A stretch of 64,000 nt of DNA, from contig NC_134025.1 of the NCBI RefSeq assembly GCF_964204645.1, positions 18,570,001 through 18,634,000 on the forward strand, read 5' to 3'. Source of the stretch: Tubulanus polymorphus. Taxonomy: Eukaryota > Nemertea > Palaeonemertea > Tubulaniformes > Tubulanidae. A model generated the notes under the pieces. It saw only the letters and a list, made by a program, of their open reading frames with translations, ran no database searches and was not told where the DNA came from. Every line of letters begins with the position of its first letter. Positions within the stretch are counted from its first letter, which is position 1. Positions 55,978-61,378 of the stretch are shown one piece after another. Made by a program: the position numbers and the translations under genes.

Positions 55978-56164
55978 CAATTCAATTCAATTCAATATAT
56001 CTTTATTGTCCTTTGAGTAATATAAAATACAAGTCAGGTTTTTTTACAATAAAGATGAGAAAAGGGTAACATAAAAAATTTATAGGAAATCATACTAAAA
56101 ACGCAATTGAAAAAGAATAAACATTAGATAAAAAAGGAAATAACAATAACAGCGATCGATTATT

Positions 56165-57851
56165 TACATACGTTGTTCAAAGCCCAACGCGATGAATTTT
56201 CCGAGCGCTTTGGTTAGTTTAGGGGAACACATAATAATTTTGAATTTTTCCGAATTGACCTCATTTTCATGAAGGGGATAATATTCTTTAAATTCCATCA
56301 AAAGGTCTTTCTTGAGCTCCTGTAACTTTGTACATTCAAGTAGAAAATGTAGCTCATCTTCTATTACATTGCAACTTGTGCAAAGTCTTTGTTCTTTTGG
56401 TGTACTGGTATACCTTCCTGTTTCAATGGCTAACTTTTTTGTCCATATTCTTATGGATTCGTTTTGCTAAGTTTCTCTTAGGTAACCATATTTCGCATCC
56501 ATATAGGAGTATAGGGGTTACTAGAGTGTCAAATAATTGGAGCGATATATCAGGGGGGCAATTTTGGCTACCTATTAACCTCTGTACTGCGAACATAGCC
56601 CTACTCGCTGACTTGAATAGTTCCTCTCTAGCTCTTAGGAAACTACCTGTTGAACAAAACATCAAACCAAGATATTTATACTCTTTTACAATATCAACTT
56701 CTTGATTGCCCAGGTAAACTTTAGAATGAATCGGTATTTGTCCTTTCTTGTTGAAAATCATGCATTTGCTCTTTTCAGTGTTAATTTCTAATTTCCATGT
56801 TTCACAGTATTTTGACAATTTATCGAGACATTTCTGGAGACCCCTTTCCGAATTAGACACGAGTACCAAATCGTCAGCGTACAACAAACAATTTACAAGT
56901 AATTCCCCAATGGTGGTTGGATCCCATTCTTCATCAAAAATCGATACAATATCATTCACATAAAGGTTAAAAAGCATGGGGCTCAACACATTCCCCTGCT
57001 GTACTCCAATGCAAAACTCAAATTTATCAGATGCAGAAAATGGTCCTAGTTTTAGACGGCATGTCATGTTTTCATACATACTTTTAATTATTTCATTGAA
57101 GTGACTTCCAATTTCAGATTTTCTTAGTTTATGAATGAGACCTTGATGCCATAAAGAGTCAAATGCCTTCCTGAGATCTATGAAGCAACAATACAATTTA
57201 CCCAAGGTGGACAATTTGGAATCTATGAGTTTTTTTAAAGTTAACTTGTGATCTGTAGTTCTACTTTTTGGCATAAAACCAATCTGATTGGGGGTTATAA
57301 GGTTTTTATTGATAAGGTAATTAGTAAGTCTATTATTGAGGACCTGACAAAAAGCTTTACCCAAACAGCTACCCAGTGTGATTCCTCTATAATTATCTGG
57401 CAGCGTTCTGTCGCCTTTTTTCAGCAGAGGTACAATAAGACCTTCAGACCAAGATGTCGGGAATATACCCTTTGAGTAGACGAAATTGAACAATTTGGCA
57501 AGTGGTTTGATTATGTAGTCTTTGCCATATTTAAGTAGCTCGTTAGTTATTCCATCAAGACCTGAGGATGTACTGTTTTTAAGTTTAGACAGAGCACTGG
57601 ATATTTCTTCTTCAGTAATCCGGTAGTCTAATTCTGTAAAAACATTGTCGGCTCCAGATAAGCTGTCTTCGACAACGTTTTCGTGACAAATTTTGGCAGC
57701 GTTCAGCGACTTAAAGTGGTTGATAAATTCTGTAGAATTTTACAATATCATGTGGTTTTACTAGGTTTTGGAAACATACATCGTTTAATTTATCCATGCA
57801 CTGGCTAGAGAGACCATGTATATTCCATGCACACATATTAAGTAAGGGCAT
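56165..57851 (-). pseudogene. ORF2: endonuclease start fused to reverse transcriptase, internal deletion
   Basis: The ATG at 57851 opens an endonuclease start, MPLLNMCAWNIHGLSS to LVKPHDI (near 57745), which then jumps to the pre-RT linker (NSTEFINHFKSLNAAK) in another frame. Most of the AP-endonuclease, including its catalytic residues, is missing. The RT is open from about 57740 to 56423: SSALSKLKNSTSSGLDGITN, LLKKGDRTLPDNYRGITL, CCFIDLRKAFDSLWHQGLIH, IGVQQGNVLSPMLF, LLYADDLVLVSNSERG (YADD). One frameshift near 56455 separates it from its C-terminus (LCTSCNVIEDELHFLLEC, a Cys/His tail) ending in a stop at 56165. This copy could not make its own nick but its RT may be intact. Confidence 0.9.
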
Positions 57852-57925
57852 TATTATTCCGTTCAGGCAGGAGACTTCTTCCTAACCGGAGGAGTGTTAT
57901 AGACAAATTTCAGCTGGTTATTAAA

Positions 57926-59257
57926 TTAATTATGTATTCTTGGACGGGTAAATAATTTTAGAGCCCGTCTTACACCAGTGGCTAGATTGTTCGCAAATTG
58001 CCTTATACCGTTCTTGTTGTTAATGTGGAGGTCGTCTCTGTAGTATCGACGTCGGTCATTCAGGTTGTCGTGACGGATAACGTAAGCATTTCTATCTGCA
58101 GCTGCGAGCGATTCGAGCGTATAGTTAAAGGTTGAAGACTGGTCACCAAGACTTGGATGGTCGAATCTAGGCGGTATCTGAGAAACAACCAATCGTGTAT
58201 CTGGGAAGTAGAACTTAATTTTGTTCACAAGGCTGACAAAGCGATCTACACAGGTATTGGCACAATGTAGGTTTCGAATATCATTAGTACCAACATGTAA
58301 AACGATGCATGCAGGGTTTTTGCTTCTAATTCTATCCACAACTTGGCCTGCTTCTTTAATTGTATACGCCGTAAAGTTTTCAACCTGGCATTGATCGTTC
58401 ACAAAGCGGTTAGTGTCGATATATCGGATGTTCGAGTCTCCGATGATAAACACGTTATTACTTTGGCGACCCACGCGTTCTGGCGGATTTTTGTTGTCAC
58501 GGATATCACGGTTGCTCTCTCTAGATATTTCCGGCGGATACTTGTCACATCTATTTTCCAATCCATGGCGCCTCTCACTGTACAAGGGGCGCTCTAACTG
58601 ATTGTAATACGTATTGTTGTGAACCTCGCGGTACTTATCTCTTTTGCGGCGCGTTAGCTTATGGACGGTTTTTCCGGCTGGCTTCAATCTAGATTCTTCG
58701 TTGTCCCCGTATAATCCTAGTGACGACGTCGATGATATCGTTGAGTATTTGTCATCAAGGTCGGTTCCTTGTGACTGAAACGTTTGGATGGCCTCAAGCG
58801 ATTTCGAGGCTATATCTTGCAGGTTATCGAGTCTAGTTTCTGTGTTACAGACTTTCTGTAAGATATCACGTGTACGGTTAACACTCAGGTCCGCGATTTT
58901 CTTTAAATGTTCAGTCGTCTTAGCCGTTTCACTCACTGCGACCACTAGTTCGTTGATGTGGTCTACGCGTTTTGTGCAGTCTTCAAGTTTTTGTTGTAGC
59001 TGTTTTATTTGAGAAGACTGTGAGCATTGATTTACCTGCTGCAATATGTTTACCGTTGATTGTTGTATCGAGTTAAACATATTCATTATGTCTTCACCGT
59101 AAATTACTGTCATATCGGTTTGACAACTAGCGTTACGAGTATTCGAAGGTTGTGGCTCAGTTTGGATTTGTGCTTCTGTCTTGTTCGATGCGCAGGCGTA
59201 CCCCAAACTAGCCTCACTGGCCGGCGCTACTGTAAGTTTTTCGACAGGCTGGTGCAT
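57926..59257 (-). CDS. ORF1: coiled coil plus SGNH-hydrolase (esterase) protein
   Basis: Intact, 443 residues, ATG at 59257. Residues about 55-165 are heptad-rich and likely a coiled coil for self-association (IMNMFNSIQQST on, Gln/Leu/Lys-rich). About 195-265 is basic and charged. About 268-435 is an SGNH/GDSL hydrolase: FIIGDSNIRYID with the nucleophile Ser275, VLHVGTNDIR with Asn325 (block III), and YYRDDLHINNKNGIRQFA with the Asp408/His411 catalytic pair (block V). All four blocks that I can check are intact. Esterase-type ORF1 proteins are known in CR1/L2-group LINEs and are thought to bind RNA/lipid or chaperone the RNP. It lies 74 bp upstream of ORF2 and 71 bp downstream of the J-domain ORF. 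Confidence 0.9.
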   Translation of the reverse strand: MHQPVEKLTVAPASEASLGYACASNKTEAQIQTEPQPSNTRNASCQTDMTVIYGEDIMNMFNSIQQSTVNILQQVNQCSQSSQIKQLQQKLEDCTKRVDHINELVVAVSETAKTTEHLKKIADLSVNRTRDILQKVCNTETRLDNLQDIASKSLEAIQTFQSQGTDLDDKYSTISSTSSLGLYGDNEESRLKPAGKTVHKLTRRKRDKYREVHNNTYYNQLERPLYSERRHGLENRCDKYPPEISRESNRDIRDNKNPPERVGRQSNNVFIIGDSNIRYIDTNRFVNDQCQVENFTAYTIKEAGQVVDRIRSKNPACIVLHVGTNDIRNLHCANTCVDRFVSLVNKIKFYFPDTRLVVSQIPPRFDHPSLGDQSSTFNYTLESLAAADRNAYVIRHDNLNDRRRYYRDDLHINNKNGIRQFANNLATGVRRALKLFTRPRIHN

Positions 59258-59328
59258 TTGTTATGAGTCAAACCTTCGCATAACGAACATTGGATCATGC
59301 TGTTCGTGTCCGGCCCGGAGCAGCAGGA

Positions 59329-59913
59329 TTATTTGTCATTCTGCTTTGAAGAACTCACGGATAACGCAGATTGCGATGGAACTTTCTTGAAGATTATCTC
59401 CAACAACTGAGGTAAGGCCTGGCTTAGCCAAACTAAGTAGGAGGAACCCTGAATGTGTAGTTTCGGAGATTTTTTAGTTGATCCCTTATACAAGGTAATG
59501 TGTACCGTTCCCAATGCAATTTTTTGAGTGTCTACATACACACCGCTGAAATGTACGCCATGATCCCCTCTATCGACAGGGTTTCCATACTGCGATCTAA
59601 ATTCCGAGTGAAATAGCTTAATTTTGTCCTTGCAATGCGAAAGATCAATAACGAGTGACTGTGATTTCTCATTTATGTTTATACTTTTGTTTGGAATACC
59701 AATGTTATCTTCCTCGCGGAAGGATCTTTGACGTTTGTCACTGCTTGACGGTGATGAAATATGACTGGTGTACAATATTTCTCGCAATTGAATATACGCT
59801 GCATTCAATTTTTGGAATTTAGAAGTCGAGTCCAGAGAATTATTCCTATCTGGGTGTATTTCACGAGCAAGAGTTAAGTACTGCAGCCGTAGAACATCCT
59901 GTGACGTTGGCAT
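59329..59913 (-). CDS. J-domain-like ORF (ORF0) upstream of the LINE ORF1
   Basis: Intact, 194 residues; an in-frame stop lies just upstream of the ATG at 59913, so the start is well defined. Residues 5-47 read DVLRLQYLTLAREIHPDRNN, then SKFQKLNAAYIQLREIL: helix II, the HPD tripeptide (His20-Pro21-Asp22) and helix III of a J domain, which stimulates Hsp70 ATPase. The usual short helix I is absent. Residues 50-90 are Ser-rich and flexible. Residues 120-178 form a separate module (FSGVYVDTQKIALGTVHITL, then KLHIQGSSYLVWLSQALPQL) with beta-strand character. It shares strand and tight spacing with the SGNH ORF, which argues it belongs to the element rather than to a host DNAJ gene. Confidence 0.75.
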   Translation of the reverse strand: MPTSQDVLRLQYLTLAREIHPDRNNSLDSTSKFQKLNAAYIQLREILYTSHISSPSSSDKRQRSFREEDNIGIPNKSININEKSQSLVIDLSHCKDKIKLFHSEFRSQYGNPVDRGDHGVHFSGVYVDTQKIALGTVHITLYKGSTKKSPKLHIQGSSYLVWLSQALPQLLEIIFKKVPSQSALSVSSSKQNDK

Positions 59914-61378
59914 ATCATAACCACATTATAAATGTGGCTGGAATAAAAATAAATTATCGTATTCATGAATACCAAATCGTAGTTTTTAAATATCTTGAGA
60001 TTTTTTGGTGAAAAATAGTATTTTGCTGATTTAAAGAGAAAAACGTACTTTGACCGTACTGCCATACTGACAATGACGGTGAGTGTTGTCTACTGTTATA
60101 TACTAACTCATACTATGGTCAAGTTTCAGGTTCGCGCTTCATGCACAGCGTATTCCTGGCTACTTATATTTCAGATTTTTTCCGGTTTGTAACTGTTTCT
60201 GTGTATGGGTATTGTCCCTATAGTAGTTACCTCTCTATATAATCTCATAACATTTAGTTTTCTGGGCATTTGCCATTTGAGTTTAGACCATGTGAATCTA
60301 GCCGGATGAAGAGCTGTAAGTTGTATGCAATGTACTACCTCAAATTTTGCCTACTTCTGAAATTCTTATTTATTGAATATGTATTTAGCTGTTGTTCTAT
60401 TTTTTGTAGTTAACTCGTTATCGTTTTCGCTACCGCTCGGCCGGTCATTAAACAGTTTGACATTAAAGCGTTGTCCAGTTGTTGGTCCTTTGTCGCTCAG
60501 TCTCCGACAGTGACTTGAGTCAAGTGATATCCCGATATGACATAAGGCAGGGAAATAATGATTATTTAACAGAATTCCTTCAATTTTTTTCTTTCAGAAA
60601 TGAATTCACTCTTTCTTTCAACAAACTCAGCCATGGTATATGACCACATAATAGCACGAGTAAGGACGTTCTGCTAATGAATTGTTGTTCACAACGAGTG
60701 AAAAATGCTGCACTTTAGCGGCTGAAAACTGGTAAGTAATTTTCGTGATTTTAGAGGAAAAGAGCGGTGTGAATAGACAACCATCCTCAGCCACCCGAAC
60801 TCATTACAAATACGTCTGGATTAGGCGGAAGAACAAGCTCAGGCCTACGAACAAACAAAAACAAGCCATATAACCTGGGCCATAAACACAGAGCGAACTG
60901 CGGACAACAATCCCAGTTGGTCAGCTGAGACTAGTCCTTAAGGTAAAACGAAGTAAAGGTTGAAGGACACAAAAGGCTGCCCGACACACCTACTCCAAAG
61001 CAACTTCCATGAAAGCTACGCAAGATGTCCACATGACCAAACTTGGTGGGAAAAACCCTCTCCCCAGGCATGTCTGGAAAAGAAGAAAGAGATTCCTCTA
61101 TCTCATCTACAATCCAGCACGAGATTGACTCTCGACAAATGTCTGCCTTGACCTGTCACTAAGGCAGGAAAAGGCTATCCGTCAAGGTTAGGCTCCATGA
61201 CCTGCAAGTAACGCTTGAGTGCTCAGACCAGACACAATACCAAACTGGAAGATACTTAGTCATTCTGAGTCAGTGCTTGGATACGCCATTCTTGAGCCAC
61301 ACACGAGGGCTGTTGGTTCTTAGCCAGACACACCGAGCCTCAACAAGACAAATCTATCACCAGGGTCGAAGAATATAT
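59914..61378. other. No recognised feature; probable 5' region of the retroelement near 59.9-60.1 kb
   Basis: 60780-61370 is GC-richer than its surroundings, with several short Pro/Lys-rich frames but no motif. It may be part of an LTR or an unrecognised element. I cannot support a call. Confidence 0.3.

Follow-up and report, generated by a model that had tools for sequence, protein, structure and literature searches.

The genome of the nemertean Tubulanus polymorphus contains a long interspersed nuclear element (LINE) beside which lies a reading frame resembling a J-domain. It is found in the 64,000-nucleotide stretch analysed here, which we call the window (assembly GCF_964204645.1, contig NC_134025.1, positions 18,570,001 to 18,634,000). 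The locus raises two questions: does the J-domain belong to the LINE, and if so is it an additional open reading frame (ORF), as the original prediction proposed, or part of one of the usual two? The J-domain is encoded by the element, as the N-terminal domain of its ORF1. A low-copy LINE lineage with an endonuclease, a reverse transcriptase (RT) and a TTGAA tail encodes an ORF1 comprised of a J-domain, a domain designated X, a PHD finger, a coiled coil and an SGNH esterase; the window contains a decayed member of this lineage.

Three predicted frames are present on the minus strand of the window. The frame at 59329-59913 (194 amino acids) includes the HPD motif and matches the Pfam DnaJ family (E 5.6e-7, 30.0 bits against a cut-off of 27.8), the frame at 57926-59257 (443 amino acids) matches the esterase family Lipase_GDSL_2 (E 1e-7), and the frame at 56423-57493 is a reverse transcriptase with a YADD motif (RVT_1, E 1.5e-38), which identifies the element as a LINE, or non-LTR (long terminal repeat) retrotransposon, probably of the CR1-L2-Jockey type. 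The 71-bp gap reported between the first two frames and the TTGAA tail are also in the sequence. The 74-bp spacing reported between the esterase and the RT stands in part: an ATG does lie 74 bp past the esterase stop (57851), but it opens a remnant of the endonuclease at the start of ORF2 that stops after 46 codons, and the RT lies in a different frame.

Comparison with a second locus, L009, accounts for this arrangement. The window copy starts at codon 27 of ORF1, so that the first 78 coding bases, encoding helix I of the J-domain, are gone, and the first ATG of the 194-amino acid frame is an internal methionine, codon 28. The gap between the first two frames is the PHD region, damaged by deletions, and 1,271 bp, comprising most of the endonuclease, are missing at 57739-57741. 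The three-frame appearance of the window copy is decay, not gene organisation. Homology to the element begins at 59916, rather than at 60100 as had been proposed. The features of the window copy are as follows.

55978..59916, minus strand: whole feature, a decayed, 5'-truncated LINE copy (blastn aligns it collinearly with L009 and L058, 91-97% identical, up to those positions)
59770..59916, minus strand: J-domain part, with helix II, the HPD loop and helix III but not helix I (Pfam DnaJ E 5.6e-7; tblastn 96% to the L009 J-domain)
59380..59679, minus strand: X domain, 96% identity to L009 (tblastn, alignment)
59329..59331, minus strand: nonsense codon TAA, where L009 has AAA, which terminates the 194-amino acid frame
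59236..59340, minus strand: PHD finger remnant, with deletions of 9 bp and 64 bp relative to L009
58778..59137, minus strand: stretch matching the presumed coiled coil of the L009 ORF1 (94%; coiled coil judged by eye)
57929..58459, minus strand: SGNH esterase domain of ORF1, with GDSN, GTND and DDLH motifs (Lipase_GDSL_2 E 1e-7; 94% to L009)
57711..57851, minus strand: start of ORF2 (endonuclease N-terminus), with a stop just past the deletion junction at 57739-57741
56450..57739, minus strand: reverse transcriptase region of ORF2 with YADD (RVT_1 E 1.5e-38)
55978..55995, minus strand: (TTGAA)n 3' tail, read from the sequence; similar tails are found in L058, L063 and L064

The better-preserved copies show the J-domain, X domain, PHD finger, coiled coil and esterase in this order in a single frame, with the endonuclease and RT behind. 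At loci L009 and L010 this ORF1 (frames L002 and L003) is 712 amino acids long and starts MAPPSP; at L011 a frame of the same type (L007) has 689 amino acids, counted from the first methionine. The ORF1s L002 and L007 have Pfam matches to DnaJ, PHD and GDSL, of which the GDSL match of L002 falls under the curated cut-off. These single frames rule out a separate J-domain ORF. No copy with both ORFs unbroken was seen among the 14 J-domain loci described below.

The eight zinc ligands of the PHD finger (C4HC3: C225, C228, C239, C242, H247, C250, C271 and C274) and the tryptophan of its WTH motif are invariant in all four aligned ORF1s; the ligands are damaged in the window copy. Its profile matches include the fingers of DIDO1, PHF8 and BPTF, which are readers of methylated histone H3, and by analogy the PHD finger of this ORF1 may read histones. 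The esterase motifs GDS, GxND and DxxH can be read in L009, L011 and the window copy. Profile matches of ORF1 include solved DNAJ and PHD structures and, at E 0.0038, an 'ORF1-encoded protein' (4c1b), presumably the ZfL2-1 esterase. Basic stretches, judged by eye, lie between the coiled coil and the esterase. The X domain found no relative: the best Pfam match is POTRA_2 (E 0.17, in one of seven members), the best match among PDB sequences has E 0.2, and Foldseek with a weak model (pLDDT 58.6) gave no match at E 0.001. A TBP-like fold was considered for X and is unsupported by these Pfam, PDB sequence and Foldseek comparisons.

The protein of the J-domain frame matches 17 stretches of the genome. 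We examined 14 loci, the window and L009-L021; a fifteenth, C7:11904414, is known from hit lists, and the counts for this genome are to be taken as minima. X and the PHD finger directly follow the J-domain in the same orientation at all 14. Within the stretches read, the esterase follows at 11 loci (absent at L012, L016 and L019), the RT at 10 (absent at these three and L021), and the endonuclease, matched against the L014 endonuclease frame, is in its place upstream of the RT at nine. A DnaJ profile search of the whole genome (267.8 Mb) gives 50 matches, and because 14 of these sit at the LINE loci the match is not due to chance; together with the Pfam match this rules out a chance HPD.

The 5' ends of the elements lie upstream of the J-domain. 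The alignment of L011 and L015 ends 208 bp before the L011 ATG, that of L011 and L019 ends at the same L011 base, and the flanks beyond are unrelated. L012/L013 and L014 have a common start 214 bp before the ATG. The 5' end of L009, 205 bp before the ATG, is placed from two repeat parts which flank L009 and are a few bases apart beside L011 (the upstream part being only a 27-bp match, 93%). The J-bearing ORF1 thus starts 205-214 bp past the element 5' end in three subfamilies. Since the element begins upstream of the J-domain, and the J-domain is multicopy together with the LINE in the same order, it belongs to the element, as was predicted; the J-domain frame is not a single-copy sequence apart from the LINE, and the LINE does not begin between 59257 and 59329. 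We hold this anatomy, and the ownership of the J-domain ORF1 by the element, to be close to certain.

Does the J-domain still have the features needed to work with Hsp70? With residues numbered from HPD as in E. coli DnaJ, His33 of HPD, Tyr25, Phe47 and Leu57 are needed or likely needed for J-domain function, according to PMC1906734. HPD is kept at all 14 loci, and the equivalents of the four residues are invariant in seven of seven aligned copies (L021, counted separately, has Phe at 25). The equivalent of Leu10 is found by eye in most copies that retain helix I, with Met in L016. All six further copies have DnaJ matches above the curated cut-off. The J region shows proportions of nonsynonymous differences (pN) of 0.28-0.42 against synonymous proportions (pS) of 0.64-0.98 in 26 diverged pairs, with synonymous sites near saturation; the comparison has eight sequences and 28 pairs, of which the near copies (window-L009 and L012-L014) were set apart. 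X and the PHD finger are constrained much like the J-domain and the linker between the J-domain and X is less constrained. Purifying selection has kept the J region in several subfamilies.

The difficulty lies in helix II. The LINE J-domains have Arg22 in 12 of 12 and Tyr25 in 12 of 13 (L021 being the other), and all 13 have Ala29 and a basic residue at position 30, a position that is basic in 6 of 20 host J-domains. Position 26, however, is Ile or Leu in all 13 and basic in 17 of the 20 host domains, position 27 is basic in none of the 13 but in 19 of the 20, and the mean net charge of helix II is 0.25 in 12 LINE domains against 3.06 in 16 host domains. In these counts L010 is omitted (identical to L009 here), L020 is partial and several rows are near copies, so the 13 are not independent; the 20 host rows were selected from 30 of the 50 genome-wide DnaJ matches. 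According to PMC1906734, the surface that binds Hsp70 has HPD and the basic residue of helix II at its core, and substitution of the latter disrupted the function of the tested J-domains, that of Pfj4 only in part. These observations weigh against Hsp70 recruitment. Judged by its residues, the LINE J-domain keeps HPD and the core without the usual positive face, and the missing basic residue 26 concerns Hsp70 function more than the fold. The DnaJ-profile similarity stops after helix III, with no helix IV seen, and a single-sequence model, which is poor (pLDDT 45), has helices at 4-18 and 29-50 joined by a loop.

Both the near-neutral helix II and the end of the similarity after helix III would suit a J-like module that is no longer active with Hsp70, either a helical hairpin for the folding or self-association of the ORF1 protein (ORF1p) or a J-mimic with another partner. 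It is not obvious why a hairpin with only a structural role would require His-Pro-Asp, yet HPD persists at all loci although J-X identity between subfamilies is 43-60% and synonymous sites are near saturation, and the basic residues at 22 and 30 are constant. We regard this alternative as a serious possibility, if a doubtful one. That the LINE J-domain recruits Hsp70 is plausible, and we would put its chances at about even. The surface of helix II may have been re-tuned, with basic residues at 22 and 30 instead of 26/27, which would predict a weak, selective or regulated contact with Hsp70.

A second alternative is that the J-X-PHD-esterase protein is the product of a domesticated host gene that exists in duplicated copies. 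The copy number is low and L009/L010 and L012/L013 are segmental duplicates, which reduces the 14 loci to about 12 insertions. The endonuclease and RT that follow the esterase at most loci speak for a mobile element instead, as do the differing flanks (of L011, L015 and L019, and of L012 compared with L014) around a constant element start base, and the TTGAA tails. L015 is about 5.99 kb long from its 5' end to the TTGAA tail (16924642-16930627 of its contig) and is flanked on both sides by ATATA, a candidate target-site duplication found by eye. Domestication is thus very improbable. That a host DNAJ gene or pseudogene lies beside the LINE by chance, as the separate J-domain and esterase frames of the window alone could suggest, is ruled out for practical purposes by the same order at 14 loci on several contigs, the single frames of the best copies and the element boundaries upstream of the J-domain.

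Several of these loci have further features. At L012 (C7:6643500-6653400) and L013 (C7:6674000-6683900) the J-domain LINE faces a second LINE head to head, and the SGNH ORF1 of the latter begins just past the 5' end of the former; the J-domain LINE has perhaps inserted into its neighbour, and the upstream stretches, some 30 kb apart, are 97-99% alike. The L009 and L011 elements terminate at one repeat (L058, L063; 286 bp, 96%), L009 within it and L011 adjoining it, which could reflect a target preference in common or merely a widespread repeat. Frames starting MVELKEYRIFVDSRKL or MAELKEYRIFVDSRKL adjoin J-domain LINE copies (flanks of L009/L010 and L016) and are reminiscent of Polinton-like elements. 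One element looks to have been split by a large insertion at C6:13502904-13524317, where stretches of esterase and RT belonging to this group are found on the strand of the L016 J-X-PHD, about 18-20 kb downstream of it.

Where did the J-domain come from? In a tree of 59 columns a branch (100/99) separates nine LINE J-domains from 18 host J-domains, picked from the genome-wide DnaJ matches; L010, L012, L013, L015 and L020 were left out. The tree names no nearest host gene. Two related sequences carry a PHD finger without a DnaJ match. L066 has a frame starting FKMAPTSQ with the PHD finger close behind; an RT stretch with 42% identity follows about 4 kb downstream (C4:17011863), and SGNH-like sequence is seen by eye further on in another frame (Pfam gives none at E 0.01). 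L057 has a PHD finger followed by a coiled-coil-like stretch. Because these two have the PHD finger without the J-domain, J-X has apparently been inserted between the conserved start and the PHD finger. We infer that J-X was probably acquired in a single event, by a LINE whose ORF1 already included a PHD finger.

Three points weigh against this account. The polarity of the gain is drawn from two decayed relatives, with no rooted tree. The second point is the number of RT copies without a J-domain. Our RT comparison lists 116 stretches, from 114 of 1642 candidates scored, and the matches fall into two groups: 22 of the 116 (about 20 loci) are at least 53% identical and the others at most 46%. 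Ten of the roughly 20 loci are J-domain loci and 10 have no match in the J-domain searches. The latter are presumed to be truncated copies; L055, which adjoins one of them, and L056 carry the esterase of the group without PHD finger or J-domain, as expected from 5' truncation, and among the J-less RT loci L055 and part of L061 were read. Thirdly, identities in J-X and in RT are uncorrelated across loci (Spearman 0.08, p 0.68, 28 pairs; a further eight pairs with L020 had too little RT). The J-X of L013/L014 is nearest to L009 (57-60%), yet the RT is only 55% identical, and the pair L011-L009 shows the reverse (55% and 66%). ORF1 exchange or unequal rates must therefore be allowed for. The missing correlation argues against strict joint descent and would fit a possible exchange of ORF1 between subfamilies.

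Other LINEs of the genome differ from this group. By inspection, L053 has an ORF1-like frame of a different kind and none was recognised in L052 and L054. Other families (for example at C7:9323966, C9:3575208 and C5:20011162) have an RT at 41-43% identity and a long open ORF2 of 1,201-1,286 amino acids, which indicates that less decayed LINE families exist in the genome.

Relatives of the J-bearing N-terminus were also sought outside this genome. In the protein database none of 926 candidates matched ORF1 residues 1-225 at E 1e-3, the alignment A1 gave no relative among the 7987 scored candidates that share most words with it, and a scan of viral contigs gave no relative. As a control, the RT matched 1538 proteins of 7989 scored in the same database at E 1e-10, with 33-42% identity among the 120 listed. 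This suggests that the lineage is unsampled there, and the absence of J-domain relatives consequently says little. Many database relatives of ORF2 carry an endonuclease/exonuclease family (PF03372 or PF14529).

Parts of this ORF1 have counterparts in known elements. Esterase and PHD in CR1 were reportedly described by Kapitonov and Jurka in 2003. The available part of PMC4120745 gives CCHC, RRM and PHD as the main ORF1 domains of CR1/L2 elements, treats esterase ORF1s as a separate type (IV), in some cases accompanied by a zinc finger or leucine zipper, and proposes exchange of ORF1 between CR1 and L2 lineages. The present ORF1 resembles these modular, partly exchanged proteins in having a PHD finger and an esterase, and differs in its J-domain, which is not named among ORF1 domains in that part; the single 'dnaj' in the paper arises where 'DNA' and 'J Virol' run together in a reference. 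ORF1p of ZfL2-1 combines an esterase with an N-terminal dimerising coiled coil and a possibly RNA-binding arginine-rich motif; the coiled coil and C-terminal SGNH esterase recur here, but a J-domain is not part of that description, and 'dnaj' is nowhere in its main text (PMC3905857). TRAS LINEs have likewise captured and kept an extra domain, in their case a helicase in ORF2 and not a J-domain in ORF1 (PMC5563155). DNAJ/Hsp40 proteins, including polyomavirus T antigens, share with the LINE J-domains the HPD loop between helices II and III, whereas the LINE J-domains are without basic residues 26/27 and any helix IV seen, and are fused to ORF1 domains (PMC1906734). No description of a LINE with a J-domain was found in the literature searched, mostly at the level of listings, with Repbase and Dfam outside that search. 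PHD and esterase ORF1s were thus already known, and the J-domain within ORF1 was not found described for any LINE.

We propose that ORF1p would oligomerise through its coiled coil and bind the element RNA by the nearby basic stretches, in the manner suggested for ZfL2-1 and its esterase ORF1p. Through HPD, the J-domain at the N-terminus would bring host Hsp70 to this oligomer, and Hsp70 could keep the ribonucleoprotein soluble or strip ORF1p ahead of target-primed reverse transcription. The PHD finger and the esterase may target the complex to histone tails and to lipids, respectively. Taken as a whole, the anatomy, a single gain of J-X and an Hsp70-recruiting mechanism make up an explanation that we favour slightly. 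More tentatively, and with somewhat less than an even chance of being right, the J-domain may have been gained once, fused with the new X onto a PHD-coiled coil-esterase ORF1, and re-tuned in helix II, giving an ORF1 particle with a dedicated Hsp70 co-chaperone; this would be the first transposon-encoded Hsp40-type function in the LINE life cycle.

The J-domain is an added module in the known repertoire of ORF1 domains, and hints at an ORF1 that can be extended at the N-terminal side. The assembly, transport and disassembly of LINE ribonucleoproteins are still open questions, and an element-encoded J-domain under selection in several subfamilies points to a remodelling step driven by Hsp70. 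A single short protein and a single motif would be enough to test for such a step in the J-domain LINE.

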